A DNA stretch of 64,000 bases, taken from the NCBI RefSeq assembly GCF_030297155.1, contig NZ_AP028067.1:186001-250000 (forward strand), given 5' to 3'. The stretch is from Vibrio sp. FE10. GTDB taxonomy: Bacteria; Pseudomonadota; Gammaproteobacteria; Enterobacterales; Vibrionaceae. Below the pieces are notes generated by a model. The model made no database searches, had not been told where the DNA came from, and worked only from the letters and a program-made list of their open reading frames with translations. The translations under genes and the position numbers were made by a program. This document shows, one piece after another, positions 3,319-34,057 of the stretch; position 1 is the stretch's first letter, and every line of letters starts with the position of its first letter.

Positions 3319-4235
3319 GCTCTCCCTTGGTCTCAATTATCTCACCATGCTTTAATGGTGAAAGATATATAGACCGATTTTTGGAATCGGTTTTATCTCA
3401 AGACTATGAATCTATTGAGTTGATAGTTATTGATGACGGTTCTACCGACAAAACCTTATGTAAGCTCTATAGCTATAAAGACCGATTTGAAGAAAAAGGT
3501 TATAGATATAAAGTTTTGGTGCAAGATAATCAAGGGCAGTCGTCCGCTATAAATAAAGCTCTTCCTTTCGTTAAAGGGCAATTTTTGACTTGGCCTGATT
3601 CCGACGATGTGCTTACTAAGAGCTCTATTTCAAGAAAAGTAAGTTATCTCGGAAAAAATAACGATGTTAACATCGTTCGAAGTGATGTGGAATTTATTGA
3701 TGAGGACCATTCTCACCTTTACTATGCTTCTGATAGATATCATTTTCGTACAAAAAACATATTCGAAGACTTGATTTTTGAAAATGATGTGTACTTTTGT
3801 CCAGGTGGTTACATGATTAGGATGAGTTGCTTTGATTGTGTTTTTAGCAATCGAAATATTATTGAATCCAGGGCGGGACAGAATTGGCAAATGCTATTAC
3901 CAATATGTCTGAATAATATATGTGGATATATAGATGAAGTAACGTACCGCTATGTAGTAAGGAGAGGGTCCCACTCTAGGAGTAGCTCTACTTATTTAGA
4001 AAAGAAATCTAAATTCGAAAAACATCAATCTCTCTTGATTGATGTAGTCAACATGCTAGGTATTTCAGGATATATTTCTCCTATTAAACATAAATACCAG
4101 ATGAAGTTCATATATCTTGCATGTGAATATAATAAATTTTATGAGGCTATTGTCATAGTTAAAAATAACATTAGTCTAATCAGTATTTTTACTTTTCTTA
4201 AAGCTATTTTAAATCGATACCGGAATAAATCATGA
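3315..4235 (+). CDS. Family 2 glycosyltransferase (unit A, first)
   Basis: The 306-residue protein opens with the GT2 (GT-A fold) nucleotide-binding signature PLVSIISPCFNGERYIDRFL, followed by VIDDGSTD (residues about 38-45) and the metal-binding acidic motif DSDD near 95 (LTWPDSDDVL). These enzymes transfer a sugar from an NDP donor to the growing lipid-linked repeat unit on the cytoplasmic face. The C-terminal third is less conserved and may hold acceptor specificity. It is translationally coupled (ATGA overlaps) to the flippase upstream and the nitroreductase downstream. Donor and acceptor are unknown. Confidence 0.9.
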   Translation: MSSPLVSIISPCFNGERYIDRFLESVLSQDYESIELIVIDDGSTDKTLCKLYSYKDRFEEKGYRYKVLVQDNQGQSSAINKALPFVKGQFLTWPDSDDVLTKSSISRKVSYLGKNNDVNIVRSDVEFIDEDHSHLYYASDRYHFRTKNIFEDLIFENDVYFCPGGYMIRMSCFDCVFSNRNIIESRAGQNWQMLLPICLNNICGYIDEVTYRYVVRRGSHSRSSSTYLEKKSKFEKHQSLLIDVVNMLGISGYISPIKHKYQMKFIYLACEYNKFYEAIVIVKNNISLISIFTFLKAILNRYRNKS

Positions 4236-5221
4236 TTAGCTCTATTAAACGCATCCTAGGTCCATACAAAGAAAAGTTTCATTTGTGGCAATGTGCAATA
4301 TTTGATCTTAAGAGGTTTGATAAGTTCTACTCAAGTAAGTACGACTCGGACCTAACATGTGAAAATTTATCTGCGTGGATACTACAAGATAAGCATCGAA
4401 TAGAAAAGGCTTTGACATTGCCTAAGCCTAGGTTGAATTTTGGTGAGATTGCAGTTACTCGTCTGACAAAAAACCTACACAAATACTTTTCTGAATACGG
4501 CACTGGAGAGGAGTTTTTCTTTGGCGTCGGTGCCCTCCGTGCTTACAAAGAATTCCACGAAAACAATGGTGTGTCAGTTCCCCATTTCTTCAATCCGGGC
4601 ATCTTGGAAGCTTATTTTGATGATAAAGAAAGTTCGAGAGTGGGAACATTGGGTAATTCTGATTTGAATAAATTGCATGCTGATCATTATACTCATGTTT
4701 TCCAAGAGTTTTGCTTGGAACGATACAGTTGTCGAAACTATAGACCTGACTTGGTGGGTGCTGAAAAATTCAAAAAAGTTATGGATTTGGCTATTAAGGC
4801 TCCATCAGTCTGTAATCGACAGCATTGGAAAGTCCGAGTTTTTACCGGAGAAGAAAAAAATATTGTGCTACAGCATCAAAATGGAAACCTTGGCTTTACT
4901 GAAAATATACCTCATGTTGCATTGATAGTTAGCGACTTATCTGCGTTTTATAAGGCCAACGAAAGGAACCAACCTTTTGTCGACGGTGGCATATTTGCAA
5001 TGAACTTCATTTATGCATTACGTGCTTATGGTATTAGTTCTTGTGCATTAAATTGGTGTAATGATATTGCTGTTGATAAGAGCTTTTATAGCCAAGGTTA
5101 CCTCGTCGACTCAGAAACCGTTGTCTTAGCAATCGCATTTGGCTATGAGTCAGAGGTAGCACGTTTAGCTAAATCACCAAGAAAAAATGTCCAGGAGTTC
5201 TACCAGTATGATGCATCGTAA
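4232..5221 (+). CDS. Nitroreductase-family protein (unit A)
   Basis: A 329-residue protein. The C-terminal half (about residues 165-320) is a nitroreductase/FMN-binding domain: YSCRNYRPDLVGAEKFKKVM, then APSVCNRQHWKVRVF, and FVDGGIFAMNFIYALRAYGI. The N-terminal 150 residues (DKHRIEKALTLPKPRLNFGE) are a family-specific extension. It overlaps its neighbours (ATGA with the GT, 14 bases with the pyruvyl transferase). Nitroreductase-like proteins often sit beside polysaccharide pyruvyl transferases in exopolysaccharide clusters; their substrate there is not established. A redox step on a sugar or ketal donor is possible but is inference. Confidence 0.85.
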   Translation: MISSIKRILGPYKEKFHLWQCAIFDLKRFDKFYSSKYDSDLTCENLSAWILQDKHRIEKALTLPKPRLNFGEIAVTRLTKNLHKYFSEYGTGEEFFFGVGALRAYKEFHENNGVSVPHFFNPGILEAYFDDKESSRVGTLGNSDLNKLHADHYTHVFQEFCLERYSCRNYRPDLVGAEKFKKVMDLAIKAPSVCNRQHWKVRVFTGEEKNIVLQHQNGNLGFTENIPHVALIVSDLSAFYKANERNQPFVDGGIFAMNFIYALRAYGISSCALNWCNDIAVDKSFYSQGYLVDSETVVLAIAFGYESEVARLAKSPRKNVQEFYQYDAS

Positions 5222-6332
5222 AGTAGGTATACTAAATTTTCAATATTCTACACATAATTACGGAGCTGTTTTACAAGCATCTGCGTTAGAGCATGTTATT
5301 AAACATGAATTTAATATCCCAACGGAGCATATTGATTTTATACCAGTGCCGGTCAATGAGACTTCACGATTAAGGCAGTTTATCGTGCGGGCTCTCAAGC
5401 AGTTGGGGGTAACAAACCCTAGAAAAAGGCCAGATATTGCTAATGAACAGGTATTTGAGTGTTTTAGAAAAGACTTCATAACTAGAAGTGCAACTACACT
5501 TTCTGATAAAAGTGCTTTTGCAGGACAATATAGAGGTTATTCTCATGTTGTTGTTGGTAGTGATCAAGTTTGGCGAACCAGTTATACAAAACAAAATGCT
5601 GATTTGTTTTTCTTACCTTTTAGAGGTAGAGGTCCAATAAAAATTTCATATGCGGCAAGTTTTGGCGTAGATTTTTGGGAGGAAAGTAAGTACTTCAAAA
5701 ACTCTGAGTTCATGGAATGGTTAAATGATTTTGATCATGTTTCAGTGAGAGAGGTTGCTGGTATTGATATTTGTAGCCAGAGTTTAATGTATACAAAAGC
5801 CATGCATGTGCTTGACCCTACTCTATTGGCGGGACTTGATTTTTTTGAATCGATACTCCAGCATTATGAACTGGCAGGTAAACCTGAGAGTCAAACCCCT
5901 ACAGTGGCTTACTATAAGTTGGATGTTGATCGTTCTTTCAGTGATGCCGCCGAATCTTTAGCCTCAAAGCTAAATACACAAGCAGAGAATTTTTACTACA
6001 AACCTAATGGTAATGGATATGAGTACTTTTCCGTACCGGAATGGTTAGGTAAAATCAAGTCAAGTCAAGTTGTGTTGACTGATTCCTATCATTGTATTTG
6101 TCTTGCTATCTTGTTTAAAAAAGAATTCGTATGTGTGTCGAATGCTTCACGTGGAGTTAGTCGATTAGAGAGTTTACTCGGAATGGTAGGGTTAGAAGAG
6201 CGGCTAGTCTCCTCACCAGATAATATTGAGAGCGCTCTCGAAAATCCGATCGACTATGTGTGTGTTGAAAAAAAATTAGAGGCGCTTAGAGTTGAATCGA
6301 AGAGGTATTTACATGACGCTCTTAACATCTAA
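5208..6332 (+). CDS. Polysaccharide pyruvyl transferase family protein
   Basis: A 374-residue protein of the WcaK/CsaB-type pyruvyl transferase family (PF04230): N-terminal VGILNFQYSTHNYGAVLQ, a central VVGSDQVWR (about residues 112-120), and C-terminal LTDSYHCICLAILFKKEF, corresponding to the conserved SxRxH-like region. The family adds pyruvate ketals from phosphoenolpyruvate to sugars, giving the polymer negative charge. I chose ATG 5208 because CCAGGAG lies 11 bases upstream; an in-frame ATG at 5187 would extend it by seven residues without a clear ribosome site. The start is inside the nitroreductase gene and the end overlaps the polymerase gene, so translation is coupled. Confidence 0.88.
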   Translation: MMHRKVGILNFQYSTHNYGAVLQASALEHVIKHEFNIPTEHIDFIPVPVNETSRLRQFIVRALKQLGVTNPRKRPDIANEQVFECFRKDFITRSATTLSDKSAFAGQYRGYSHVVVGSDQVWRTSYTKQNADLFFLPFRGRGPIKISYAASFGVDFWEESKYFKNSEFMEWLNDFDHVSVREVAGIDICSQSLMYTKAMHVLDPTLLAGLDFFESILQHYELAGKPESQTPTVAYYKLDVDRSFSDAAESLASKLNTQAENFYYKPNGNGYEYFSVPEWLGKIKSSQVVLTDSYHCICLAILFKKEFVCVSNASRGVSRLESLLGMVGLEERLVSSPDNIESALENPIDYVCVEKKLEALRVESKRYLHDALNI

Positions 6333-7587
6333 ATTGAACTACGCCTTTTGTGCTTTGGTGTTATTTTTCTTTTTGTACACGTTCAGAGTTCCATACTTGG
6401 GCAATTCTGCCATTATTGCGGTACTTATTTCTTTAGCATATGTAATATTTACAAATAAGCTAGGTGCTTTTCTCGGTCTTATCCTCCATCGAAATACGAT
6501 TTTTTATGTAGGGTTAGTTTCCACTCCTTTTGTATATTATCTGATACTCACTATATTTTTAGGAGAAATGGATTTTAGCTATTTGACACAGTATAAGCGA
6601 TTAGTCTTCTATTTTTTTGGTTCATCTGTTGTCTCAATCTTCATTTCAAGTTTGGTTGATATAGAGCGTCATAAATTGGTTAAAATATTTCGAACAGTTG
6701 TAGTTATTCAACTTTTGATCATGCTGACGGCTTTTTTTGTTCCCGCGTTTAGAGAGCTTCTAGCATTGACCAAACCTGAAGATTTAGTTCTTGTAGCTAA
6801 TCGATATAGTGATGGCGGGGTAAGAGGGTTATCTCTCTCTGGTCCACAGTTTTTTGGATTGGCTGTTACTTTGTCTTTTCTTCTTTTCTTATTTGTAGTT
6901 GATGAATATAACAACAAAAATAGAACATATATGTATATGTTCTATGCATTCATGTTGTTATTCTTTATGTCCGCTGGTCGAGTTATCTTGGTCGCTGCTG
7001 TGGTATTTTTTGTCTACCTATTATGCCAGAGTAGAATAAAGTCTTACTCTTTAGTCTTACGTTTTTTGTTTTTTTCAGTGATCGCTGCGATCGTGATGGT
7101 TGCTATTTATTATTTGGTTCTTCCTTATTCATTCAAGGTAAGAATAGATAATTTTATTGGGTTTACATTTGAATTTATTCTCAATTATCTCGAAAGCGGT
7201 AAGTTAGAGACCTCATCGACAAATCACTTACTTGAAATGTATTTCCCAATATCTTTGGAAACGTTTGTTTTTGGCGATGGTCGATATTCAGGTACACTTA
7301 CCGGCTACTATATGAATACGGATAGTGGTTATATGCGTCAGATTCTTGCCTCTGGTATTATGAGTTTGGTCTTATTTTTCTTTTCTACTGTTTATTTACT
7401 TTATTTTTGCGCTATTGATATTTGCCGAAATAATAAATCGGCAGTTTCTGGTGTATTATTGTCATCAACTGTTCTTCTTTTAATTTTCCAGTATAAAGGC
7501 GAGGTTTTGGGGTACTTTCTAAACTTACATATGATTCTTTGGGTGTTTTATTTTACTTATAGGTATAAAAAAATTAATGAGTATTAG
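6313..7587 (+). CDS. wzy: O-antigen/capsule polymerase Wzy-like membrane protein (unit A)
   Basis: A 424-residue protein with about 10-12 hydrophobic segments and one large periplasmic loop (about residues 285-350). Wzy polymerases share little primary sequence; the call rests on topology, size and position in a Wzx cluster. Weak O-antigen-ligase-like features are GVRGLSLSGPQFFG and the later VFGDGRYSG, resembling the conserved loop of the Wzy_C/EpsG-type proteins. Wzy joins repeat units on the periplasmic side. ATG 6313 has AGAGGT seven bases upstream and overlaps the pyruvyl transferase by 20 bases. Strongly AT-rich. Confidence 0.82.
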   Translation: MTLLTSKLNYAFCALVLFFFLYTFRVPYLGNSAIIAVLISLAYVIFTNKLGAFLGLILHRNTIFYVGLVSTPFVYYLILTIFLGEMDFSYLTQYKRLVFYFFGSSVVSIFISSLVDIERHKLVKIFRTVVVIQLLIMLTAFFVPAFRELLALTKPEDLVLVANRYSDGGVRGLSLSGPQFFGLAVTLSFLLFLFVVDEYNNKNRTYMYMFYAFMLLFFMSAGRVILVAAVVFFVYLLCQSRIKSYSLVLRFLFFSVIAAIVMVAIYYLVLPYSFKVRIDNFIGFTFEFILNYLESGKLETSSTNHLLEMYFPISLETFVFGDGRYSGTLTGYYMNTDSGYMRQILASGIMSLVLFFFSTVYLLYFCAIDICRNNKSAVSGVLLSSTVLLLIFQYKGEVLGYFLNLHMILWVFYFTYRYKKINEY

Positions 7588-8545
7588 TATTATTATCCCA
7601 GCTTATAACTCGGATAGATATATTGTTGAGGCTTTAGACTCAATTACAAAGCATAATGAGTGTGACCTTGAAATTATTGTTATTGATGATGGATCGATCG
7701 ACGATACAAAGAGCCTAGTTGAGAGTTATATATCAGAAGATTGTAGGGTGCGGTATGTTTATCAATCAAACCAGGGGCAATCCGTAGCTAGAAATGTAGG
7801 TCAAACCTTAGCTAATAAGGATTATGTCCTTTTTATGGATAGCGATGATACTTATGAGCCTGGTTCAATAGATCGGCTTTATCATCAGGTGGTTTCTAAC
7901 CGGTTAGATGGCCTTTTTTTTGAGGCAAAAGACTTCGATGAAATGAATGGAGAGAGTGGCATCAAGTTTGATTACTCACGTCCTACTCAAAAGAAAGGTG
8001 CTGTGGCGACAGGTCAAGAGTTGTTTGTTGACTTTGTTTCCGAAAATACTTTAACTGTCTCTCCATGTTTGTACTTGATTCGACGAGAAATTGTAGGAAA
8101 GATAAGTTTCTTTCCTAATATTCATTATGAAGATAACTTATTTACTTTTCAGTTACTTATGTCTGAATCTCTCAAGAGGTGTCAAACACTAAATGAGGCT
8201 TTTTATAATCGAAGAGTTCGTTATGGTTCTATAATGACGGGAGAGAAGACAAGCAGACATCTAGAAGGTTATTATCAGGTTTATTTAGGTGTATGTGATT
8301 ATATTAGAGAGAATCGAGAACAACTTCATGGGGATCTTTTGATTTGTATATTACGTTTTAAGGCTCGATTAATGTACAAAGTCTCCCTTGCTTTAGTGGA
8401 AACAAGAAATTTGTATTCATTAAGAGGGTTAAAAATAAGATACTTCCTTTTTTGTCATGTGACTAAAAATATTCGTTACCTGAAAAGTAGTCAGTTGTTT
8501 TCAATTTTAATTCCAGAAGTTAATTTAGTTAGAGGTTTTCTATGA
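7577..8545 (+). CDS. Family 2 glycosyltransferase (unit A, second)
   Basis: A 322-residue GT2 enzyme: N-terminal ISIIIPAYNSDRYIVEALDS, VIDDGSIDDT (about 37-46), QGQSVARNVGQ, and the metal-binding MDSDDTY near residue 95. It should add one sugar to the lipid-linked intermediate at the cytoplasmic face of the membrane. It overlaps the polymerase by 11 bases and the epimerase homologue by ATGA, so it is translated within the same operon. Donor sugar unknown. Confidence 0.9.
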   Translation: MSISIIIPAYNSDRYIVEALDSITKHNECDLEIIVIDDGSIDDTKSLVESYISEDCRVRYVYQSNQGQSVARNVGQTLANKDYVLFMDSDDTYEPGSIDRLYHQVVSNRLDGLFFEAKDFDEMNGESGIKFDYSRPTQKKGAVATGQELFVDFVSENTLTVSPCLYLIRREIVGKISFFPNIHYEDNLFTFQLLMSESLKRCQTLNEAFYNRRVRYGSIMTGEKTSRHLEGYYQVYLGVCDYIRENREQLHGDLLICILRFKARLMYKVSLALVETRNLYSLRGLKIRYFLFCHVTKNIRYLKSSQLFSILIPEVNLVRGFL

Positions 8546-9504
8546 GCCGATTGTTTTTCTATATAAAAAAAGGCTTTGCCGATCTATTTAACCCATTGAT
8601 ATATAGTCCAGTTTACGGTGAAGATACGTTACAGTATTATTATTTAAAGTATGAATTACCCTCGTTATTAGACGGTAGAAGTCAGAAGTTTAGCTTTGAT
8701 GACAATAACATCCCGATAATACCTCATTACATTGACTCATCCTCAAAGAAAGAGGGGGGAGAAGGCTTTCATTATTATCCGATTGCAATAGGTCAACTTG
8801 CGCTAGCCTACTTGCACGATTACTTAGATAGTAAAAAGGCTGATAGCTTAACTACATTTCTAACTTATGCTTCATGGTTTGTTGATAATCAGGAAGATAA
8901 CGGTACTTGGTTAGCGCAAACTAATGTTGACAAATATGGTGTAGAGGCTCCTTGGGTATCTGCAATGACACAAGGACGAGCACTTTCTGTTTTACTGAGA
9001 GCGTATCGAATGACTGGCGACAATAAGTATTTAGATTCTGCAAGTTTGGCATTTGAGGCATTGCTATCTGATTCAAGTTTTGTAAAGTACTATAAGGAAG
9101 GGCTTTTCTTACTTGAGTATCCAAGTAAATCAACACCTAGGATACTTAATGGATTTATTTTTGCGTTATATGGCATAGTGGACTTTTCGAGAGCTGTGCC
9201 AGGTGATGAGAGGTGCAAGGAAATACTTGAAAGTTCAAGGCGGAGTTTGCTTGAACATTTACCGTTGTACGATAACGGGTTCTGGTCTGTATATGATCTT
9301 GATCATATCGATTATCAGAAAACAGTGAATATCTCAACGGTACATTATCATTTTATACATATATCACAGCTGCGCACACTCGCAGATATTTATGACGATT
9401 CTAGATTTAATGAAGTTGCTACGCGATGGGATGGATATTATCGTAATAAACTTTCACTGTTTAGGATCTATTTTGTTAAAGCGAGAAGATTGTTTAAACT
9501 GTGA
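8542..9504 (+). CDS. D-glucuronyl C5-epimerase family protein
   Basis: A 320-residue protein resembling the C-terminal catalytic domain of heparosan-N-sulfate-glucuronate C5-epimerase (PF06662). Supporting stretches are WFVDNQEDNGTW, TQGRALSVLLRAYRMTGD (about 147-165), LEYPSKSTPRILNGFIFALY (about 192-211), and VHYHFIHISQLRTLADIY near 275-292. The family converts D-glucuronic to L-iduronic acid inside a polymer or oligosaccharide. There is no signal peptide, so it would act in the cytoplasm, presumably on the lipid-linked repeat. It lies between two GT2 genes with overlaps on both sides. The homology call is good; the reaction in this organism is inferred. Confidence 0.78.
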   Translation: MSRLFFYIKKGFADLFNPLIYSPVYGEDTLQYYYLKYELPSLLDGRSQKFSFDDNNIPIIPHYIDSSSKKEGGEGFHYYPIAIGQLALAYLHDYLDSKKADSLTTFLTYASWFVDNQEDNGTWLAQTNVDKYGVEAPWVSAMTQGRALSVLLRAYRMTGDNKYLDSASLAFEALLSDSSFVKYYKEGLFLLEYPSKSTPRILNGFIFALYGIVDFSRAVPGDERCKEILESSRRSLLEHLPLYDNGFWSVYDLDHIDYQKTVNISTVHYHFIHISQLRTLADIYDDSRFNEVATRWDGYYRNKLSLFRIYFVKARRLFKL

Positions 9505-10370
9505 TGAAGATATCGATAATTATTCCGACTTATAATTCTAGTAGCTACATTAAGAAGTTACTAAGTAGTATTCCTATTACTCAGAATGTTGAGATCATCA
9601 TCGTGGATGATTATTCTTCTGATATTGCTGAACTAAAGATGGTCGCTTCTTTATTTTTCAACGTTGATATTTATTCTAACAATGGTACAAAGGGTGCTGG
9701 TACATGTAGGAATATAGGGGTAAATCATGCTTTAGGTGAATTTTTAATTTTTGCTGATTCAGATGATTTTTTTGATGCTGATGTTGAGTTAGTTTTTGAT
9801 AATATCGATGAACTAATTCCAAAGAATTGTGAGGTAGGGTATTTTAAACCATTTTCAATTTCAACATGCGGAAAACCTTCCTCTAGACACGAAATGTATG
9901 AGAGATTAGTCAAGTTACATTTGAAATGTAATTGCGAATATGTGAGGTACTGGTTCCATGTACCTTGGTCGAAAATTATTCGTCGCAACTTTGTTCTTAG
10001 TCACCAATTAAAGTTCTCTGAAACTATGGTATCCAATGATGTTATTTTTTCACTATTAGTTGGGATAAAATCGACGTCTATTATTTCACACAATCTAAGT
10101 TTCTATACCGTTCTTGAAAGGGAAGGATCTCTTACTAAAAATCCTAGCTTTTTGATGCTAAATCAAAGGCTTGATATTGTAAGAGAATATAATGCTTTAT
10201 TGAAGGAATATCGATTAAGTGAGTATTGTATTCCTGAGGTTATTTATTTGATAAAGATGTTTAAGTTAGAACCGACCAAAGTCGTCAAATTGGCTTGGAA
10301 AGCCAATAATTTATTTCCAAATTTCACTTATATCAGATCAAGGATAGCTAATCGATTATGTAAAAAATGA
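9501..10370 (+). CDS. Family 2 glycosyltransferase (unit A, third)
   Basis: A 289-residue GT2 protein: KISIIIPTYNSSSYIKKLLS, VDDYSSD (about 35-41), GAGTCRNIGVNHALGEFLIF and ADSDDFFD near residue 90. Starts are GTG 9501 or ATG 9504; both overlap the epimerase stop, and the ATG is the more likely. It is the last gene of the tightly packed part of unit A: 340 bases without a gene follow. It is very AT-rich. Donor and acceptor unknown. Confidence 0.87.
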   Translation: MMKISIIIPTYNSSSYIKKLLSSIPITQNVEIIIVDDYSSDIAELKMVASLFFNVDIYSNNGTKGAGTCRNIGVNHALGEFLIFADSDDFFDADVELVFDNIDELIPKNCEVGYFKPFSISTCGKPSSRHEMYERLVKLHLKCNCEYVRYWFHVPWSKIIRRNFVLSHQLKFSETMVSNDVIFSLLVGIKSTSIISHNLSFYTVLEREGSLTKNPSFLMLNQRLDIVREYNALLKEYRLSEYCIPEVIYLIKMFKLEPTKVVKLAWKANNLFPNFTYIRSRIANRLCKK

Positions 10371-23754: not shown

Positions 23755-23955
23755 ATAAGAGCAGTAACGGGATGCGAGTAACCGGGTAAACGAAGAGCAG
23801 AAAGGCAGATACGAGATTCGAGTGGCGAGATACGAAAAGCGCCACTCGAATCCGCTCTTCATCTCTTCGTTACCCGTATCTATTATTTATCCACTCGCAT
23901 CTGCTCTTTTAGCTTTTCGCATCCCGTTTACTCGCTACTCGAATCTGCTTTTCTA
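23755..23955. repeat. Dispersed repeat, copy 3, with head-to-head inverted arms
   Basis: About 200 bases made of the family modules in both orientations (GGGATGCGAGTAACCGGG to the left, CCACTCGCATCTGCTCTT to the right). The centre is a perfect 12-bp inverted repeat (ATTCGAGTGGCG, 12-nt loop, CGCCACTCGAAT; 23816-23851). It fills the space between the convergent wzc and holin-like genes and may act as a bidirectional terminator. Confidence 0.75.
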
Positions 23956-24288
23956 CTTCTTCACCACCCCACCAGTTAAATACAATCCAATCGCCGCTAA
24001 CACCGGGTAGCCAAACGCTTCATTGGTCATTTCCCCCAATGGCTTCCAATCGTAGCCGTGCATGCAGCCCAGAATCACCATCACATGCAGTGCCACATAA
24101 GGAATGGTGAACAACAACACAATGTAGCGCTGTATTAACTTAAAAGGTTCATACGCTTTAAGCAGTGCCAGCTTGTGCTTCGCTTTTTCTTCATCAGTAA
24201 AAAACATCGCATCTCCTGTGTTGGTGAGTGCATCTAACCCTTTGTTAATGGAAGACTGACTCCCGAATATTCTTCCGAACAATGTCAT
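23953..24288 (-). CDS. Phage holin-like membrane protein (3TM type)
   Basis: About 111 residues from ATG 24288, which has an excellent AAGGAG site five bases upstream; an in-frame ATG at 24324 has none. The N-terminal half is soluble and charged (FTDEEKAKHKLALLKAYEPF) and the C-terminal half has two hydrophobic segments (YIVLLFTIPYVALHVMVILG and the stretch ending AIGLYLTGGVV), as in 3TM-type phage/GTA holins. It lies downstream of a T7-lysozyme-like amidase in the same direction, the usual lysis-cassette arrangement. The stop codon abuts the dispersed repeat. Whether it is still used is unknown. Confidence 0.65.
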   Translation of the reverse strand: MTLFGRIFGSQSSINKGLDALTNTGDAMFFTDEEKAKHKLALLKAYEPFKLIQRYIVLLFTIPYVALHVMVILGCMHGYDWKPLGEMTNEAFGYPVLAAIGLYLTGGVVKK

Positions 24289-24351
24289 ACTGCTCCTTGG
24301 TTTATTGATTGGCTTTGACCGCATGTATAGCCTTTGACTGTATAACCCTCT

Positions 24352-24500
24352 CTCTCTTCACCTCTGCTTTTCCGCTCTTCGAATCTCGCTATCCGTCACT
24401 CGCATCCGCTCTTCCAGCTTTTCGCATCTCGATACTCGAATCCCGCATCTGCTCTTCCTGCTCTTCGCATCTCGTTCACTCGCATCCCGTATCTGTCTTT
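24352..24500. repeat. Dispersed repeat, copy 4 (overlaps amidase 3' end)
   Basis: Modules such as CGAATCTCGCTATCCGTCAC, TCGCATCCGCTCTTCC and GTTCACTCGCATCCCGTATC. The right end lies inside the coding region of the amidase and supplies its last residues and stop codon. Confidence 0.75.
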
Positions 24501-25288
24501 AAAACCATAACCGGACACGCTTTATTCACTCCCCAATCTTTATGCCCCTTAACATTCTCATCTGAAATCAAGAACTGCTCTTGCAGTGCAGCCATCAAAC
24601 CAAATAATGCCTTACGCTGCGCAAGCGTGAAGTTATCTTCTGGTTGCAGCTTGGCATTACAACCGCCGACCAAACAAACCCCAATATTGCCTTTGTTGTG
24701 TCCCTTCACATGCGCGCCGGTTTGTGACAGTGGCCTGCCAAGTTCGACATCCCCATTGCGACGAATAACAAAGTGATACCCGACATCGCGCCAACCTCTC
24801 TTTTTATGCCATCGGCGAATCTCGGCTACGTCTACATCTTGCTGTGGCGGCGTGGCGCTACAATGCACAGTAATAAAAGAGTATGGCGGGCAATGAGGTA
24901 AGCGGAGTAAAACTGAAACCAAGCTTAGAGAATAGGAAGCAGGAGATAAGCAAGGCTCTAACGAAGGGATGAGCTCTGTAGATCCAGCCTGTTCTTGTAA
25001 GTCAGCCCGCTCTCGTGAACCTGCTGGCTCTTGCGAGCTAGCTCGCTCTTGCAAACCGGTCGGCTCTTGCAAAATAGCAGGCGCTTCTAACGGCTGGTGT
25101 GAAACTCGATCAGTTGCTGGTGGAGTGTGTGACAAAATAAATCCTCGTGTTGTTGTAACCAGGTGACTAAAGACGTTGATAACGAACCTTTTAAATTTGG
25201 GTGTAATGCGATGTGTTGTCGCAAACTGGCGGCTACGGTTTTGGCATAACCGGTGTGGTGGCTCACATAACGTAAATACATCACGCAA
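24476..25288 (-). CDS. Phage-type N-acetylmuramoyl-L-alanine amidase (T7 lysozyme-like)
   Basis: The C-terminal 140 residues match T7 lysozyme (Amidase_2): FITVHCSATPP with the first zinc His, VAEIRRWHKKRGWRDVGYHF, GAHVKGHNKGNIGVCLVGG and VKGHKDWGVNKACP with the other zinc ligands. It would cut the amide bond between MurNAc and L-Ala. The upstream part is odd: five 6-residue repeats (LQEPTG, LQERAS, SQEPAG, SRERAD, LQEQAG) and a hydrophobic stretch. The frame is open to 25288 but its first 70 codons overlap the next gene in another frame, so the true start is probably later and not ATG. The final residues (KTDTGCE) are encoded by a dispersed repeat. Confidence 0.8.
   Translation of the reverse strand: MRDVFTLCEPPHRLCQNRSRQFATTHRITPKFKRFVINVFSHLVTTTRGFILSHTPPATDRVSHQPLEAPAILQEPTGLQERASSQEPAGSRERADLQEQAGSTELIPSLEPCLSPASYSLSLVSVLLRLPHCPPYSFITVHCSATPPQQDVDVAEIRRWHKKRGWRDVGYHFVIRRNGDVELGRPLSQTGAHVKGHNKGNIGVCLVGGCNAKLQPEDNFTLAQRKALFGLMAALQEQFLISDENVKGHKDWGVNKACPVMVLKTDTGCE
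24982..25071 (-). repeat. 18-bp tandem repeat inside the amidase gene
   Basis: Five imperfect 18-bp units, for example TTGCAAGAGCGAGCTAGC and TCGCAAGAGCCAGCAGGT on the minus strand, each coding for six residues of the pattern (L/S)(Q/R)E(P/R/Q)(A/T)x. Confidence 0.85.
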
Positions 25289-25569
25289 TAACCCAGTGGC
25301 GCTTCACGCCTTGCCCGGCTGATCATCCAACAAACATCCTCGTAGCTGGGGTCTTCAAAGAGCTGATTTTCAAAACAGTCATCTTCGGAGCGCTTTAGTT
25401 CTTCATTCGGCCAATCGTCATAAACTTTGTCTTTATAAACCCCAGCGTCACTGCACCTATCACTAAAAAATAACGACTGGTTCGACCGAATGAGGGAATA
25501 AGCTCGGCACTCGATGCTCGCCATACCGGGTTGATACGCTGAAATAAAAAGAGAAACTATCGCCTTCAT
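25087..25569 (-). CDS. Hypothetical protein of the phage-like patch
   Basis: A 160-residue protein that I do not recognise. The first half is acidic and Ser-rich (DDWPNEELKRSEDDCFENQL), the second half predicted helical (SLRQHIALHPNLKGSLSTSL, then WLQQHEDLFCHTLHQQLIEF). ATG 25569 has a clear AAGGTG site. It is directly upstream of the amidase and in the same direction, so it is probably co-transcribed with the lysis-type genes. No membrane segment and no catalytic motif seen. Confidence 0.6.
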   Translation of the reverse strand: MKAIVSLFISAYQPGMASIECRAYSLIRSNQSLFFSDRCSDAGVYKDKVYDDWPNEELKRSEDDCFENQLFEDPSYEDVCWMISRARREAPLGYCVMYLRYVSHHTGYAKTVAASLRQHIALHPNLKGSLSTSLVTWLQQHEDLFCHTLHQQLIEFHTSR

Positions 25570-25913
25570 TAAGCACCTTATTGCTGTATGGGGAGGGCAA
25601 TGTACTGCAACATTCTTGATTGGGGTTGGCGGTAATAACGCGAAAACGGAGGAACACAGAAAAGTGAGAGATGCTTCGAAGGTTATCAGCTTAGGTGTTG
25701 TTCTTGTTGCATATCAATGAGAGCAAGCAGGAAAACACTTTTTGTTACTTTTTATCCCGCCTCATCTTCGCCCCCAATGCCTAAAAAAGTGGTGTTAATA
25801 ACTTGTTATGCAAACGAATGGCTCTAGCCAGATCTGCCCAATCGCCAAATCAAGGGTAATAGATAGATCAAGGCAATCACTAGACCAATACCAATTAACA
25901 AGGAGCGTTATCC
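25570..25913. other. Divergent region in the phage-like patch
   Basis: About 340 bases between the minus-strand hypothetical gene and the plus-strand HTH gene. No coding region is supported; it must hold divergent promoters. No repeat of the dispersed family is seen here. Confidence 0.5.
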
Positions 25914-27009
25914 ATGTGTGTTTCTCTAATACTTTCTTTCATCCCCTTAAAAACCGGGTCGCCGATCAGCAAGTTGGTGTTATTAAAATTGGCCGATAAT
26001 GCAGACGCGCGCGGCGTGTGTTTTCCATCCTTAAATTACTTAGCGCAATATTGCGAAGTATCGGTAAGAACCGTTAAACGACACGTTAACGAGCTCGAAA
26101 AAACAAGGGTTTGTGAAGCGGATAAAGCGGTTTGATGATTCAGGGCGCCAACGCAGCAATATCTATCAGCTGCGCCTACCCAGCGACAACCACATTCAGC
26201 AGGCCGATCTAGACCAAACGGATAGCAACCTAAACAACGCCAATGTAGACCTAACAGACTTACCGCCAGCCTCATTAGCATGTACGCAGAAAAAAGAGCG
26301 AGCAAAGAAAATAGAACATGCGCAGAAAACCGATCATTCAGACACCCTCCTGGGTGACTCAAGATCCAACACGGAGAGTGATCATTCGGCACTCATAATC
26401 TTTCATAAAGAACATAAAACAGACATTCCTTGTAAAACAGCCCCAGATCTTGAAACAGCCTTGTCCCTTGAAAAAGAGCCAACGATACCTCAAACCACCA
26501 CTCCCATACCCCAACAGAATGAAGCCGTGATTCACCTGCTCACCAAGGAAGGCAGCGCGCCGATTTATCATGAGTTCTACAAAATCTTAGAACACACCTA
26601 CCCAAAGTTAGATGTGCTGCAAGAACTGCATGCCATGCAAGCGTGGCTGTACATCAACCCCAATAAGCGCAAGCCCTTCGAGCACATTGGCCATTTTGTG
26701 AATGGCTGGCTAAGAAGAAGCGCCCAAGCCAAAGCGAAGCGAAACTCATCGCCGGTCTCTAAGCAAACAAGGGCGGGTAAACCAGTAAGAGCTTCTACAC
26801 CAACCAAGGCAGCTAAACTCCAAAAGGCCGCGCAAGCAATAGGTTCCGAAAAAGCCATACAGGCCACCAAGCCCATGGAACCACAACACCCCACGCCTGT
26901 TACTCAAGCCTTAACGGAATTCAAAGCCACCAGTAAAACCAATCCGTTTGAAGAGCGTATCAAGACACTCATCCAATCTAAATCGTCCGGCACGGATTCC
27001 AAGCAGTGA
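25914..27009 (+). pseudogene. Phage replication-type helix-turn-helix protein, frameshifted at an A6 run
   Basis: Two frames join into one protein of about 364 residues. The first (ATG 25914, AAGGAG upstream) gives SKLVLLKLADNADARGVCFP and an HTH (YLAQYCEVSVRTVKRHVNEL), then runs into a stop at 26135. Reading on in the next frame from the A6 run at 26098-26103 continues the expected HTH wing (EKQGFVKRIKRFDDSGRQRS). The C-terminal part has the motif AWLYINPNKRKPFEHIGHFV, then GWLRR, typical of phage O-type replication proteins. One surplus A in the A6 run explains the break. It may be a decayed gene, a sequencing error or a slippage-controlled gene. Confidence 0.7.
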
Positions 27010-27098
27010 GAATCCAGCTTTTCAGGGAAACCTTGGCTCAAGCAGCCCAATGGTTAGACAACTCCATAGCTAAGCAAAACCAGCATAAGCACATCTAA
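27006..27098 (+). CDS. Possible 30-residue peptide coupled to the HTH gene
   Basis: GTG 27006 overlaps the stop of the preceding frame (GTGA). The product (RETLAQAAQWLDNSIAKQNQ in its middle) looks amphipathic and helical. The overlap suggests translational coupling, but length and lack of homology make it tentative. Confidence 0.25.
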   Translation: MRIQLFRETLAQAAQWLDNSIAKQNQHKHI

Positions 27099-27139
27099 CA
27101 AACGTGACGAGATAAAAATAGAATGAGGGATAGGGCACC

Positions 27140-27460
27140 ATGGACTATACCAGCCTAAAAAAACTGACAACAAAAGAAAAAGTCACCATTTTAGAAAAAG
27201 AGGTAGCGCGAGTGGAAGGGCGCATTGGCGAGTTCTTGAAACTGCTTGTTAGCCACTACCCACAAGGGCTAACACGCACAGAGATTAAAGCGTTACTGGC
27301 GGTAAACAACAACCCAAGCTTCGTATCTTTGTACCGCAACGGCAATATCTTCATTGATATAGAAAAGCGTTATTGCACCACAGCACAAGAAAACCGCTAC
27401 CACATAGGGACCCAGCTTCTGCAAGACGTACAATGCTTTAGGTGGATAAACGCGTGGTGA
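27140..27460 (+). CDS. Hypothetical protein, winged-helix-like
   Basis: A 106-residue protein. The N-terminus is charged and helical (KLTTKEKVTILEKEVARVEG); the middle (YPQGLTRTEIKALLAVNNNP) resembles a helix-turn-helix, and RNGNIFIDIEKRYCTT could be the wing. No confident family. It has GGGATAGGG upstream of ATG 27140 and follows the frameshifted HTH gene on the same strand, so it belongs to the phage-like patch. It ends 22 bases before the leader of unit C. Confidence 0.5.
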   Translation: MDYTSLKKLTTKEKVTILEKEVARVEGRIGEFLKLLVSHYPQGLTRTEIKALLAVNNNPSFVSLYRNGNIFIDIEKRYCTTAQENRYHIGTQLLQDVQCFRWINAW

Positions 27461-30259: not shown

Positions 30260-31519
30260 GTGTTATATAAGTATGTATTTGGTAGCACTGCTGCTTCGCT
30301 GATAAGATTACTAGCATTCTTTATATTGATTAAAACTCTTGGAGCAGAAGAGTATGGTGTAATAGCATATTTCTTAACGATATCAATAATAGTATCTAAT
30401 GTGGCACTACTTGGTTCATATAACAGCTCTATAAGAAGAGTCATAGATAATGAAAGAAAAGCTCATGTTCTGTATTTATCTATGGTTCCAGTTGTATTTA
30501 CGATAGTGATTTTCACAGTTACTTCTTATTTTTTCGTCAGACAAAATTTTGAATTATTACTACTAATTTTTTTCTCTGAAATACTTTCAACAGTATTGTT
30601 TAGTTTTTTTTGTGCATTATTAAATACTATTAATAAGTATGAGATTTCCGCTGGTTGTCGATTATTAAATGCTATTGGTTCCTTAACCGTGAGTATCATT
30701 GTTTACGCACAAGAGTTCGATAAGGTTGAATGGGCTGTATTAAATGTTATAAATGCGATACTTTCAGCAAGTGCTGTTTTGCTATGTTTTTGTTTTTGTT
30801 ATAGGCCATTAATAGGTAAGAAAAATGAAGACTATTCAGTGAAATATCTAATCAACAACATAAGAAATAACAAGTGGGTAACAATTTCTGTTTTTTCTAG
30901 GACAGCATTTTTTCAGTCAGATAGAATTATACTAAATTTCATCCTTAATCCTGAAATTTATGGAATATATAGTATATGTATCCGGTTGATATCTTCATTT
31001 TATTTACTTATCTCAAATTTAATTCATTACTATGAGGCAGAGTTCTATAGGAAGGCCAAAGTTGGGTTTAACGAAGTAATAAAATTAAAAGATCTTGTCA
31101 CATCAAAATCAAATAAAATCGCTACGATACTAATTATTCTAAATTTTTCACTAATTGTTTTTTTGTTTTCACTATACAAATTTAATAGCGACATATTTTT
31201 TTTTCTAGGCGCCTTCATACTCAACGATTTTAACTATACAGTCTTTGTACCCATGTATATTGTGTTACTATTTTCACTGTATCCAATGAGTAAGTTTTGG
31301 ATATATCTTTATATGTTAAACGGATTAGGTTTAGAGAAGCTTAGGGCTTTAGTCTTAATGTCTCTAATATTGATTTCGTGTTTTATTGTAGGTGCAAGTT
31401 CTAGTGTCAGCTATTACTTAACACCTTTTTCAATTGTAATTAGTTATTACGTGGCATGCTATGTGATAAATAGAAGCACAATTTATTGGTATGATAATGG
31501 AAAAGTTAAGCAAGATTGA
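30260..31519 (+). CDS. wzx: Polysaccharide flippase Wzx (unit C)
   Basis: A 419-residue protein with about 12 hydrophobic segments. The N-terminus (FGSTAASLIRLLAFFILIKT, then LGAEEYGVIAYFLTISII) matches the polysaccharide-biosynthesis (Wzx/MATE-like) exporters. It starts with GTG two bases after the wecC stop. It differs from the flippase of unit A and so most likely carries a different lipid-linked repeat unit. Very AT-rich, with long T-runs. It overlaps the next gene by 29 bases. Confidence 0.85.
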   Translation: MLYKYVFGSTAASLIRLLAFFILIKTLGAEEYGVIAYFLTISIIVSNVALLGSYNSSIRRVIDNERKAHVLYLSMVPVVFTIVIFTVTSYFFVRQNFELLLLIFFSEILSTVLFSFFCALLNTINKYEISAGCRLLNAIGSLTVSIIVYAQEFDKVEWAVLNVINAILSASAVLLCFCFCYRPLIGKKNEDYSVKYLINNIRNNKWVTISVFSRTAFFQSDRIILNFILNPEIYGIYSICIRLISSFYLLISNLIHYYEAEFYRKAKVGFNEVIKLKDLVTSKSNKIATILIILNFSLIVFLFSLYKFNSDIFFFLGAFILNDFNYTVFVPMYIVLLFSLYPMSKFWIYLYMLNGLGLEKLRALVLMSLILISCFIVGASSSVSYYLTPFSIVISYYVACYVINRSTIYWYDNGKVKQD

Positions 31520-32948
31520 TATTCTTGAAAAGATTGGCGGTATTTATAAAGATAAACTTCAAAATGAAGAATATGAAGTCATTGAGATGGATCCTCTTGA
31601 TTTAATCTCTGAAGATAGATTGGATATCGTTTTAAAATTATTGTCAATACCAAGAATAATAGGGGTTAATAATTCTGAATACCTTTTTGAAATATATAAA
31701 AAGCATATTAGATGCATAACCGAAAATACATTTAGTGAAAATGGCTCCACAACAAAGCTATCATTGGATGATTTTAAGTCTGAGTTTAAACAGGTATGTG
31801 AATCGATTTCTGAAAATGGGTTTAATGATACATTATCTTTAATCCCTGTTGATGGTAATTCTTCACCAATAAATGGTGCACATCGTGTAGCTGCTGCAAT
31901 TTACTATAAAGTAAAAGTTAAAGTCGTAATTATACCAGAACTATCTGCCAAGTATGATGCAGAGTTTTTTAGAAAAAGAGGACTATGTGAAGACATTATT
32001 GAACATGCTTTTTGTAGACTGGTTGAGATCAGTCGGAAGTATGTATGTGGATTGACTTGGCCTGCATCTAAGATTACAGATACGACAATTAATTCGGTGA
32101 TAGAAGATATATGCTACCTAAAATCTTTTAACATAAATGAGAGGGGGATGCATAATATAATTTGTGAAGCTTACAGTTCTGAGCAATGGCTAGGTACACC
32201 TGAAAATAGCTATAAAGGTGCTTGGAAAAAAGCTTTACCTTGCCTTGGCGATAAAAAAAATAAAATTGTAAACTTCTTTATTATGAAAGTCGGGAACAAT
32301 GATTTAGTAGAAATCAAAGAAAATATTAGACAAGAATTTGGTATTGGAAAACATTCGGTTCACATATGTGATGATAATTTTGATTCATTGAGACTTTCAA
32401 GATATATTCTAAACCCACATTTCATCAAAATAGTTAATAAAGCTTCTCACTATAGATATAGTACTTTCATTGATAAATTGGAAAAGCTAAAAATGGAAAT
32501 CGGAAATAAAGCTATACCTGGAGACCAGTTACTTCTCGATGGAAGTACTTTATTAGGTGTTTTAGGGCTTAGAGAACCTAACGATCTTGATTTTTTGTCA
32601 TCTAGTGATTTTCAATTAAAATGTGCAGATAGTCACAATAGATACTTATACTTATATCAAAATAACATGGATGAGCTTCAAGGAAACCCTAGTAATTACG
32701 TTTACTTTTACGGTTTAAAGTTTATTGGAATATTACCATTAATTGATTTTAAGCGAAACCGTTCTGAAGCAAAAGATAATATTGACATAAGTCTCATTAA
32801 AGGGTTTGGAGAAAATAATTTATATTCAAAATTTATGGTGTTTTTTAAAAGCAAATTTTATTTTACAAAATTGAAAGTTAGAAATTTTACAGTTAAATTA
32901 ATAACATTATTTGGTTTGAAAAATATTTTAAAGTCGATTATCAAATAA
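31491..32948 (+). CDS. Putative ParB/sulfiredoxin-like domain plus nucleotidyltransferase-like domain protein
   Basis: A 485-residue soluble protein that I cannot assign to a named family. Around residues 110-140, SLIPVDGNSSPINGAHRVAA followed by an Ile/Val-rich strand resembles the ParB/Srx fold (GxHR signature). Around 345-370, LLLDGSTLLGVLGLREPNDL then DF gives GS-x12-DLD, the metal/nucleotide motif of pol-beta-type nucleotidyltransferases. Some ParB-like enzymes are ATP- or ADP-dependent serine kinases (SbnI, SerK), so a role in adding a phosphate or nucleotidyl-linked decoration to the repeat unit is conceivable, but that is inference. It overlaps the flippase by 29 bases, and 266 AT-rich bases follow. 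Confidence 0.6.
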   Translation: MIMEKLSKIDILEKIGGIYKDKLQNEEYEVIEMDPLDLISEDRLDIVLKLLSIPRIIGVNNSEYLFEIYKKHIRCITENTFSENGSTTKLSLDDFKSEFKQVCESISENGFNDTLSLIPVDGNSSPINGAHRVAAAIYYKVKVKVVIIPELSAKYDAEFFRKRGLCEDIIEHAFCRLVEISRKYVCGLTWPASKITDTTINSVIEDICYLKSFNINERGMHNIICEAYSSEQWLGTPENSYKGAWKKALPCLGDKKNKIVNFFIMKVGNNDLVEIKENIRQEFGIGKHSVHICDDNFDSLRLSRYILNPHFIKIVNKASHYRYSTFIDKLEKLKMEIGNKAIPGDQLLLDGSTLLGVLGLREPNDLDFLSSSDFQLKCADSHNRYLYLYQNNMDELQGNPSNYVYFYGLKFIGILPLIDFKRNRSEAKDNIDISLIKGFGENNLYSKFMVFFKSKFYFTKLKVRNFTVKLITLFGLKNILKSIIK

Positions 32949-33214
32949 ATTAATTTAAAATTTTCTTAAGTGAATAATTTACATTCTAATTTTATAAACA
33001 TTTATATAAGAGTAAATGGTTGGAATTTGTCTTAGATAGATTAAAAAATGTATATGATAAATTGAACTTATATATTACTAGTTATAACGTAATGAAAGCT
33101 CTTTAGGTGTTGTGAAGTGTAAAGTCTCTAGGATTTTAAGCTATATGATTAAAAAATCATATAGCTAACTGGCTTTTATATAAATACTGTGGTTGAAAGA
33201 TATAGGATAAATTT

Positions 33215-34057
33215 ATGGGTAAAGTAGTTGAAGTATCAGTAGTGTTACCTGTATATAATGCTGAGAAATATATTCATGATGCTATTGAATCGACGTTAAA
33301 TCAGACTTACAAAGATTTTGAACTAATTATTATAGACGATGGTAGTACTGACCGCTCGTTAGATATTATTAATAGTTTCGAAGATGAAAGAATAGTCGTG
33401 GTTTCACGAGATAATAAGGGCTTAGTTGCAAGCCTAAATGAAGGCGTGAGTCTTAGTAAAGGTAAATTTATTGCTCGAATGGATGCGGATGATATCAATC
33501 ATCCCAAAAGACTAGAGATACAAGTGAAGCAGTTTTCTAGCAATAAAGACTTGGTTTTGCATTGTTCAAATGTTCGTTATATTGATAGTTTTGGTGTTGT
33601 GACAGGTTTTTCTGGTGTTCCATTGTCAAATCGAGGACTAAAGAAAAAACTTAGGCGCGGAAATTGTATTTTTCACCCTTCTGTAATGTTTCTAAAAAGT
33701 GCATTTGATATTGTTGGTGGTTACGATAGGGTAGTAGATAAGTATTTTGAAGATTATATTCTTTGGCTTGATCTCAGTCGAAAGGGTGATTTTAAGTGCT
33801 CTTCAAAATCACTTCTAGATTATCGTATTTTGACTACTTCCTTATCAAGAAATCAACCTGATGCAATAAAAAAAATCTACCATAAAGTGATACGTAACTA
33901 TGGACACTATCCAGAATTACATGATGATTTCAAACTGGCTCTAACAGATACCAATATCAGTAAATTGGATGCTAAAGTTAGAGAAAATAAGTTTTTAAGT
34001 TTCTTTACGAAGTTTCCAAAAATATTAATTTTTGAAATGAGTGGTTTAATTAAGTGA
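33215..34057 (+). CDS. Family 2 glycosyltransferase (unit C)
   Basis: A 280-residue GT2 protein: EVSVVLPVYNAEKYIHDAIE, IIDDGSTDRSLDI (about 40-52), KGLVASLNEGVSLSKGKFIA and MDADDINHPKRLEIQ near residue 90. The IARMDADDI version of the motif is common in GT2 enzymes of O-antigen clusters. ATG 33215 has AGGAT upstream. It overlaps the polymerase gene by four bases (GTGA). Donor unknown. Confidence 0.9.
   Translation: MGKVVEVSVVLPVYNAEKYIHDAIESTLNQTYKDFELIIIDDGSTDRSLDIINSFEDERIVVVSRDNKGLVASLNEGVSLSKGKFIARMDADDINHPKRLEIQVKQFSSNKDLVLHCSNVRYIDSFGVVTGFSGVPLSNRGLKKKLRRGNCIFHPSVMFLKSAFDIVGGYDRVVDKYFEDYILWLDLSRKGDFKCSSKSLLDYRILTTSLSRNQPDAIKKIYHKVIRNYGHYPELHDDFKLALTDTNISKLDAKVRENKFLSFFTKFPKILIFEMSGLIK

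Follow-up and report, generated by a model that had tools for sequence, protein, structure and literature searches.

A Vibrio capsule-cluster protein with predicted ParB/sulfiredoxin and nucleoside-diphosphate-kinase folds and a nucleotidyltransferase-like domain: a candidate for phosphate-linked glycan decoration

A 64,000-nucleotide stretch of the genome of Vibrio sp. FE10 (contig NZ_AP028067.1, positions 186,001 to 250,000; the window) contains a capsule gene cluster in which an intact open reading frame (ORF) adjoining a flippase gene encodes a 485-residue protein. A sequence-only reading of this DNA had described the protein as a two-domain fusion of a ParB-like and a nucleotidyltransferase (NTase)-like part, and had suggested that it might be a kinase or nucleotidyl transferase adding a phosphate-linked group to the repeat unit. 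We found support for both parts, as well as for two that had been missed: a middle domain with a predicted nucleoside-diphosphate-kinase (NDK) fold and a basic C-terminal tail. We also found that the NTase is encoded either in the same chain (cis) or by a neighboring gene (trans). The protein is real and widespread, and it is not described in the literature or the family libraries that we searched. We tentatively assign it to surface-polysaccharide assembly, as an enzyme that would produce a phosphate-linked substituent of the repeat unit, attach it, or both, a reading that we rate as close to, if slightly below, an even chance.

Family, predicted folds and conserved residues

A Pfam scan with the whole protein returned YqzH alone, below the cut-off (E = 0.0043), which we took to be a chance match, and sequence and profile searches of NCBIfam, PHROGs and the Protein Data Bank (PDB) gave no convincing relative or family. 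Two successive searches of 5.8 billion proteins, each scoring about 8,000 candidates, returned 20 and 26 proteins, counting the one encoded in the window; a homologue search with a wider profile returned 17, one of them new; and a scan across genomes from 84,980 species located 41 loci, many in metagenome bins. The titles of these 41 loci name Pseudomonadota, Bacteroidota, Campylobacterota, Bacillota, Planctomycetota, Chlamydiota, Cyanobacteriota, Saccharibacteria and a Kapabacteria bin. Two further members lie on annotated plasmids of the fusobacterium Ilyobacter and of Jannaschia, each as a "hypothetical protein" amid polysaccharide genes, and a third plasmid record, from Paracoccus, matches at 25% over 36% of the query. 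Five of 196 genomes of relatives, the host's included, gave a hit, which in two cases was weak or partial. The family tree mixes phyla, which points to an accessory gene, probably transferred horizontally.

Conservation is given for 51 aligned sequences unless otherwise stated. Because 29 of these rows are loci fetched through either of two peptide patterns, spanning GAHR and KHS-HI-D, conservation of these motifs is partly built in; the first pattern was matched by 14 of the 29, the second by 20 and both by 5. The 22 rows fetched without patterns all keep E83, G129, H131, R132, Y228, W233, K247, K276, R280 and H291. In the full alignment, R43, D45, K49, Y69, H72, E83, K89, G129, H131, R132, F160 and Y228 are invariant, and W233, K247, K276, R280 and H291 are kept in 50 rows. 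An AlphaFold2 model of the whole protein, built from the 51 sequences, had a pLDDT of 95 and a pTM of 0.91. In a cross-table of profiles, the N-terminal part scored best against ParB (17 of 20 ParB loci used), the middle against NDK (31 of 35 loci) and the C-terminal part against NTases.

Whereas the structural matches listed for the whole model were taken up by the NDK part, ParB, Noc, KorB, PadC and sulfiredoxin (Srx) accounted for 21 of the first 22 matches, at moderate Z, when the N-terminal domain was modeled by itself. Structure prediction thus supports a ParB/Srx fold for residues 1 to 181 and upholds the ParB half of the original suggestion. GAHR lies opposite the phosphate-binding GERR motif of ParB in a profile alignment that drew on 7 of 24 ParB loci, and its G129, H131 and R132 are among the invariant residues, in keeping with the ParB-type context first proposed for it. 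When the protein was shuffled 20,000 times, GAHR arose in 0.07% of the shuffles and GS-x12-DLD, the motif on which the NTase assignment had been based, in 0.09% (0.5% and 2.6% for looser forms). By themselves the two motifs would thus be weak evidence, yet not trivial; it is conservation of the residues across the family that settles the observation. We take E83, from its position, to be a candidate for a catalytic glutamate of the SerK/SbnI type.

The ParB family PF02195 was absent from the nine families matched by 29 N-terminal domains at E ≤ 5, and only two other places in the host genome match it. The new family is a branch of the ParB/Srx superfamily that is overlooked when PF02195 is used for searching. 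A match to DUF4003 (E = 0.00093, in 2 of the 29 domains) was set aside as chance, and one to phrog_7405 (E = 0.013, residues 98 to 148) covers the GAHR region. The Pfam scan of the query found no helix-turn-helix (HTH) DNA-binding family. An ordinary chromosome-partition ParB was rejected, since there is no HTH and the residues after the ParB fold, where DNA-binding and C-terminal dimerization domains would be expected, model as an NDK fold.

The middle domain, conserved to the same degree as the ParB part, is the least expected component of the protein. Modeling supports an NDK fold for residues 181 to 311, the fold of PF00334, with which the domain shares a histidine within SVH-x-x-D. In two profile alignments, made with 19 of 20 and 31 of 35 NDK loci, H291 falls opposite the catalytic histidine of NDK; the host's own ndk has NSVHGSD at this point, and the sole exception to H291 is the tyrosine of locus L025. 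The domain differs from NDK in two respects. The lysine of the NDK KPD motif is replaced by W190 (Trp in 48 sequences, Phe in 3), a pairing of WP with KP that is based on strand position and a global profile alignment, and the distance from the basic residue of helix C to the histidine, 30 residues in NDK, is by eye about half as long (~15). Given the loss of the lysine, a plain NDK is improbable; PF00334 itself was not recognized (best E = 0.081, in 1 of 51 members), and we rejected an ordinary NDK because the KPD lysine is lost and the host carries a separate, ordinary ndk. The domain may be a phosphohistidine carrier or a changed nucleotide site. The family adds an NDK fold with a retained catalytic histidine outside the NDK family.

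The sequence evidence supports an NTase-like C-terminal domain. Among 20 members scanned, DUF6036 (E = 0.0048), NTP_transf_2 (0.076) and NTP_transf_5 (0.099) were each matched once, and the domain profile matched the PF14907 (NTP_transf_5) NTases with P = 0.0017. The Pfam matches lie below the curated cut-offs, and a third carboxylate was not located in the cis domain; the motif G-S/G ... R-x-x-x-D-h-D is shared with PF14907, DUF6036 and related polymerase-beta-type NTases, in keeping with the pol-beta-type context claimed for GS-x12-DLD. The domain is included in the confident whole-protein model, for which the structural matches listed fell to the NDK part. The DxD is kept in 32 of the 51 rows, the other 19 being 13 short forms without the domain and 6 in which it is ruined.

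The last 45 residues have a mean charge of +9.3, compared with −0.4 per 45 residues elsewhere, and reach at least +5 in 46 of 51 sequences. This basic tail is present in long and short forms alike, while three proteins fused to a family-2 glycosyltransferase (GT2), P0014 to P0016, end without it. Its charge suggests a site at the membrane surface, for which the tail would be a candidate anchor.

NTase in cis or in trans

In 11 Bacteroidales loci the member is a short form, with little sequence beyond the NDK domain, and in a twelfth locus, L022, the C-terminal domain is ruined. Directly upstream in all 12 is a gene for a protein of 226 to 242 aa, which overlaps by 4 to 53 bases in 11 of them when the first start codon is taken. 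In this partner a D-x-D is invariant, as is a later aspartate (D41, D43 and D86), and D86 could serve as the third carboxylate. Two of five partners scanned matched PF14907 below the cut-off (E = 0.00091 and 0.0035), and the partner profile matched it with P = 0.0011.

A search with the partner profile found more copies one or two genes away from L019 and L024 (Saccharibacteria), L021 (Prochlorococcus) and L066 (the host genus), in all of which the protein's own NTase motif is ruined. Thus, five of the seven loci with a ruined C-terminal domain have a partner (these four and L022), and L025 and L032 do not. In three of them (L019:9911-11314, L024:9938-11320 and L021:9971-11311) the C-terminal domain is retained with its DxD lost, making these proteins pseudo-NTases, and the intact trans NTases beside them carry an extra N-terminal part of more than 100 residues.

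Over 46 loci, the NTase is in cis in 25 (22 by motif pattern and L007, L023 and L065 by eye), in trans in 16, in both places in none and in neither in 5 (L017, which is cut by a contig end, L025, L032, L039 and L041). The absence of loci with both is by the partner profile, over stretches of varying length (~4 kb for L065 and L066, 4.2 kb for L002). Fisher's test, which was based on the count of 22 and ignores kinship, gave P = 8e-7. The best tree, of 38 of the 46 loci (L016, L017, L025, L032, L039, L040, L041 and L063 are omitted), has four switches between cis and trans, three of them forced by well-supported branches. L026 and L041 have a PF14907-like ORF several kilobases away. The Bacillaceae loci L025 (Evansella) and L032 (Halobacillus), in which the motif is ruined or missing, belong to genomes that each encode a PF14907 NTase, the Evansella copy lying at a distance of ~14 kb, provided that contig C1 corresponds to the record in question.

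That the NTase is found in cis or in trans and not in both implies that in nearly all members the activity involves an NTase. This complementarity, read from gene content, is the best functional evidence in the analysis, and it provides a quick aid for annotating members and finding their partners.

Proposed function and alternatives

Homologues of the window's polysaccharide genes lie within 10 kb on either side of 37 of the 41 loci, and at least two such homologues lie near 29 (no random-locus control was included). Among the remaining four loci, glycosyltransferases adjoin the gene in L014 and L018, L016 is itself fused to glycosyltransferases and nothing was found at L040. Among 77 adjacent genes, the top families were GT2 (15), group-1 glycosyltransferases (12), PF13524 glycosyltransferases (6) and PF01943 flippases (5), in a scan for which 25 of 45 families are shown and frames longer than 900 aa were excluded. 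In 10 of 39 loci examined, the gene is directly followed by a homologue of the window GT2, and in P0014 to P0016 a GT2 is fused to the N terminus. The 2,726-aa open frame of the Kapabacteria bin (L016:8309-16486) joins an FkbM methyltransferase, the ParB/NDK/NTase module, a GT2 and a GT4, apparently a glycan assembly line in a single chain; in a Methylophilaceae protein (L039:9941-11497) only the ParB-like part was recognized, followed by an FkbM methyltransferase domain. LytR-CpsA-Psr proteins are encoded three genes downstream in L019 and L024.

SerK (TK0378) and SbnI likewise have a ParB/sulfiredoxin fold without a recognized HTH, and the likeness that we draw is one of fold. We presume that their GxHR-type motif is the counterpart of GAHR. 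By analogy with their phosphorylation of serine, the ParB/Srx domain would bind a nucleotide at GAHR and phosphorylate a small hydroxyl compound or a glycan hydroxyl. The NDK-fold domain would relay a phosphoryl group through H291, and the NTase, in the same chain or from the neighboring gene, would use a nucleotide to activate or transfer the phosphorylated group. The basic tail would keep the enzyme, which is probably cytoplasmic and bound to the membrane surface, at the membrane where lipid-linked glycans are built. The two N-terminal folds (by model), the residue conservation, the NTase arrangement, the gene context and the tail are observed; from them we infer each catalytic step and the sequence of steps, what is modified and on which acceptor, and the location at the membrane, and we hold the mechanism as a whole with moderate confidence. 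The parts, the location and the glycosyltransferase fusions fit the phosphate-linked role first suggested, and the substrate and product cannot be read from them. As no sequence feature reads out the substrate, phosphoserine, an example offered in that reading, is kept only as one candidate; by analogy it seems chemically reasonable, with serine not favored over other hydroxyl compounds.

Precedents exist for parts of this scheme. ParB-fold SerK phosphorylates free serine with ADP (PMC5120207), and the literature consulted does not describe, for SerK or SbnI, NDK or NTase domains like those of the capsule-cluster protein. In the Type A flagellin glycan of Clostridioides difficile (CD0241 to CD0244), N-methylthreonine is joined to GlcNAc by a phosphodiester, for which PMC10714395 proposes phosphotransferase, cytidylyltransferase and TagF-like steps, by way of CDP-threonine, with CDP-glutamine and CDP-serine also mentioned. 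The enzymes there are of other families (ThrH-like, GDP-mannose-pyrophosphorylase-like and TagF-like), are encoded by separate genes and act on flagellin, not capsule. Our family has one comparable neighbor. Directly upstream of the L024 gene, a Saccharibacteria bin encodes a 1,135-aa protein (L024:6527-9931; above the size limit of the neighbor scan) that combines a TagF-type CDP-glycerol glycerophosphotransferase (PF04464, E = 3.3e-45) with a GT2. Such a neighbor is expected if the product is a nucleotide-linked phospho-alcohol, and it fits a CDP route, in this one locus only.

The alternative that survives best is a direct glycan kinase, which would phosphorylate a sugar hydroxyl of the lipid-linked repeat unit to give a sugar-O-phosphate without any small-molecule substituent, the NTase serving to bind substrate. 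The GT2 fusions, the conserved GT2 neighbor and the basic tail are in its favor, as is the restriction of a separate phospho-alcohol transferase to L024, with none in the neighbor families shown. We consider it unlikely, because it leaves unexplained both the TagF-type neighbor and the supply, at 41 of 46 loci, of an NTase with DxD, whether within the chain or from a nearby gene. A less probable alternative is the activation of a uronic or amino acid, through adenylylation by the NTase or phosphorylation by the kinase, to form an amide or ester, so that no phosphorus is kept in the polymer. The window has a uronic-acid gene (UDP-ManNAc dehydrogenase), and amino-acid amides on uronic acids occur in marine polysaccharides; however, the sugar genes beside relatives differ (GDP-mannose dehydratase and GDP-fucose synthase in Ilyobacter, for example), and no carboxyl activators with ParB/Srx or NDK folds are known, save for sulfinate phosphorylation by Srx.

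Slightly more improbable still is a catalytically idle ParB/NDK nucleotide switch that tunes glycosyltransferase or export activity. The lost NDK lysine would suit it, and ParB folds work as NTP switches, according to PMC12704722, where ParB-CTPase folds are likewise fused to other domains. A term search of the main text of that paper found no "diphosphate kinase," "nucleotidyltransferase," "polysaccharide" or "glycosyltransferase," and in the legend of its Fig. 4 the fold is identified with PF02195, the family that our proteins fail to match at E ≤ 5. Against a switch stand the invariant catalytic-type residues, the NTase complementarity and the lack of an HTH family. Finally, a toxin-antitoxin or defense gene that drifted into the locus is very improbable: the weak NTase kinship includes AbiEii (P = 0.023), a value that is unreliable because the ORF rule for that set mistook at least one row (L120), and the polysaccharide context, the glycosyltransferase fusions and the lack of any match to the protein in 50,697 phage records all oppose it; we rejected a toxin-antitoxin identity on gene context.

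The preferred reading, a phosphate-linked substituent on the repeat unit, makes the family a testable candidate for unexplained phosphate chemistry in surface-polysaccharide loci of at least eight phyla. The folds are old; their combination matched no Pfam, NCBIfam or PHROGs family and no PDB sequence relative, and the titles and abstract openings of the literature matches listed contain no description of a ParB/Srx-NDK-NTase architecture. A bolder version, which we think has a real but minor chance of being right, is that this is a new enzyme class, in which a ParB/Srx kinase and an NDK-fold phosphohistidine relay, with an NTase in cis or in trans, build a phosphate-linked decoration and pass it to lipid-linked glycans, the NDK fold having been recruited from nucleotide balance to glycan assembly and the system having spread horizontally through capsule and exopolysaccharide loci of many phyla.

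The gene and its surroundings in the window

The start of the gene falls within the 3′ end of the flippase gene, the two overlapping by 29 bases, and its opposite strand holds no ORF of 100 aa or more. Reading through the 266-base gap downstream (32949 to 33214) revealed nothing nameable.

Features of the 485-residue protein gene and its immediate neighbors (window positions)
Feature	Position	Strand	Remarks
Wzx-like flippase	30260..31519	+	Polysacc_synt PF01943, E = 1.8e-9
Whole gene	31491..32948	+	485 aa; alternative start 31497; database copy 483 aa
Predicted ParB/sulfiredoxin-fold domain with extra helices	31491..32033	+	Residues 1-181; 11 residues invariant in 51/51
GAHR	31875..31886	+	Residues 129-132; opposite ParB GERR phosphate-binding motif in profile alignment
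Predicted NDK-fold domain	32031..32423	+	Residues 181-311
HSVHICD	32352..32372	+	Residues 288-294; H291 opposite catalytic His of NDK in two profile alignments
Polymerase-beta-type NTase-like domain	32436..32840	+	Residues 316-450; sequence motif and weak profile kinship
GS-x12-DLD	32541..32591	+	Residues 351-367
Basic, partly hydrophobic C-terminal tail	32811..32945	+	Residues 441-485; net +9
GT2, downstream of the gene	33215..34057	+	

The surrounding cluster is of the wzx/wzy type. Genes for a UDP-GlcNAc 2-epimerase and the UDP-ManNAc dehydrogenase lie upstream, followed by the flippase gene, the 485-residue protein gene and the GT2 gene. The next genes encode a protein without a Pfam match that by eye has the look of a membrane polymerase, a weakly matching group-1 glycosyltransferase, an acetyltransferase, an oxidoreductase, a heparinase-like protein, a second group-1-type glycosyltransferase, an initiating PF02397 transferase, a PglD-like protein, an aminotransferase and a PF02719 protein. 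The capsule setting, as originally called, is well supported by genes for GfcB/YjbF, GfcC, YjbH, Wza and Wzc at 15 to 24 kb of the window. The G+C content of the 485-residue protein gene is 29%, compared with 41 to 45% in wecB, wecC and the genes from 36971 on; low G+C is frequent in serotype genes.

Two other parts of the window have features of their own. Between Wzc and wecB (23953 to 27460), holin-like and amidase-like ORFs, identified by eye, give the look of a small phage-derived insert. At 1810 to 10370 lies a second polysaccharide-type cluster, with Polysacc_synt_3 flippase-like and nitroreductase-family proteins.
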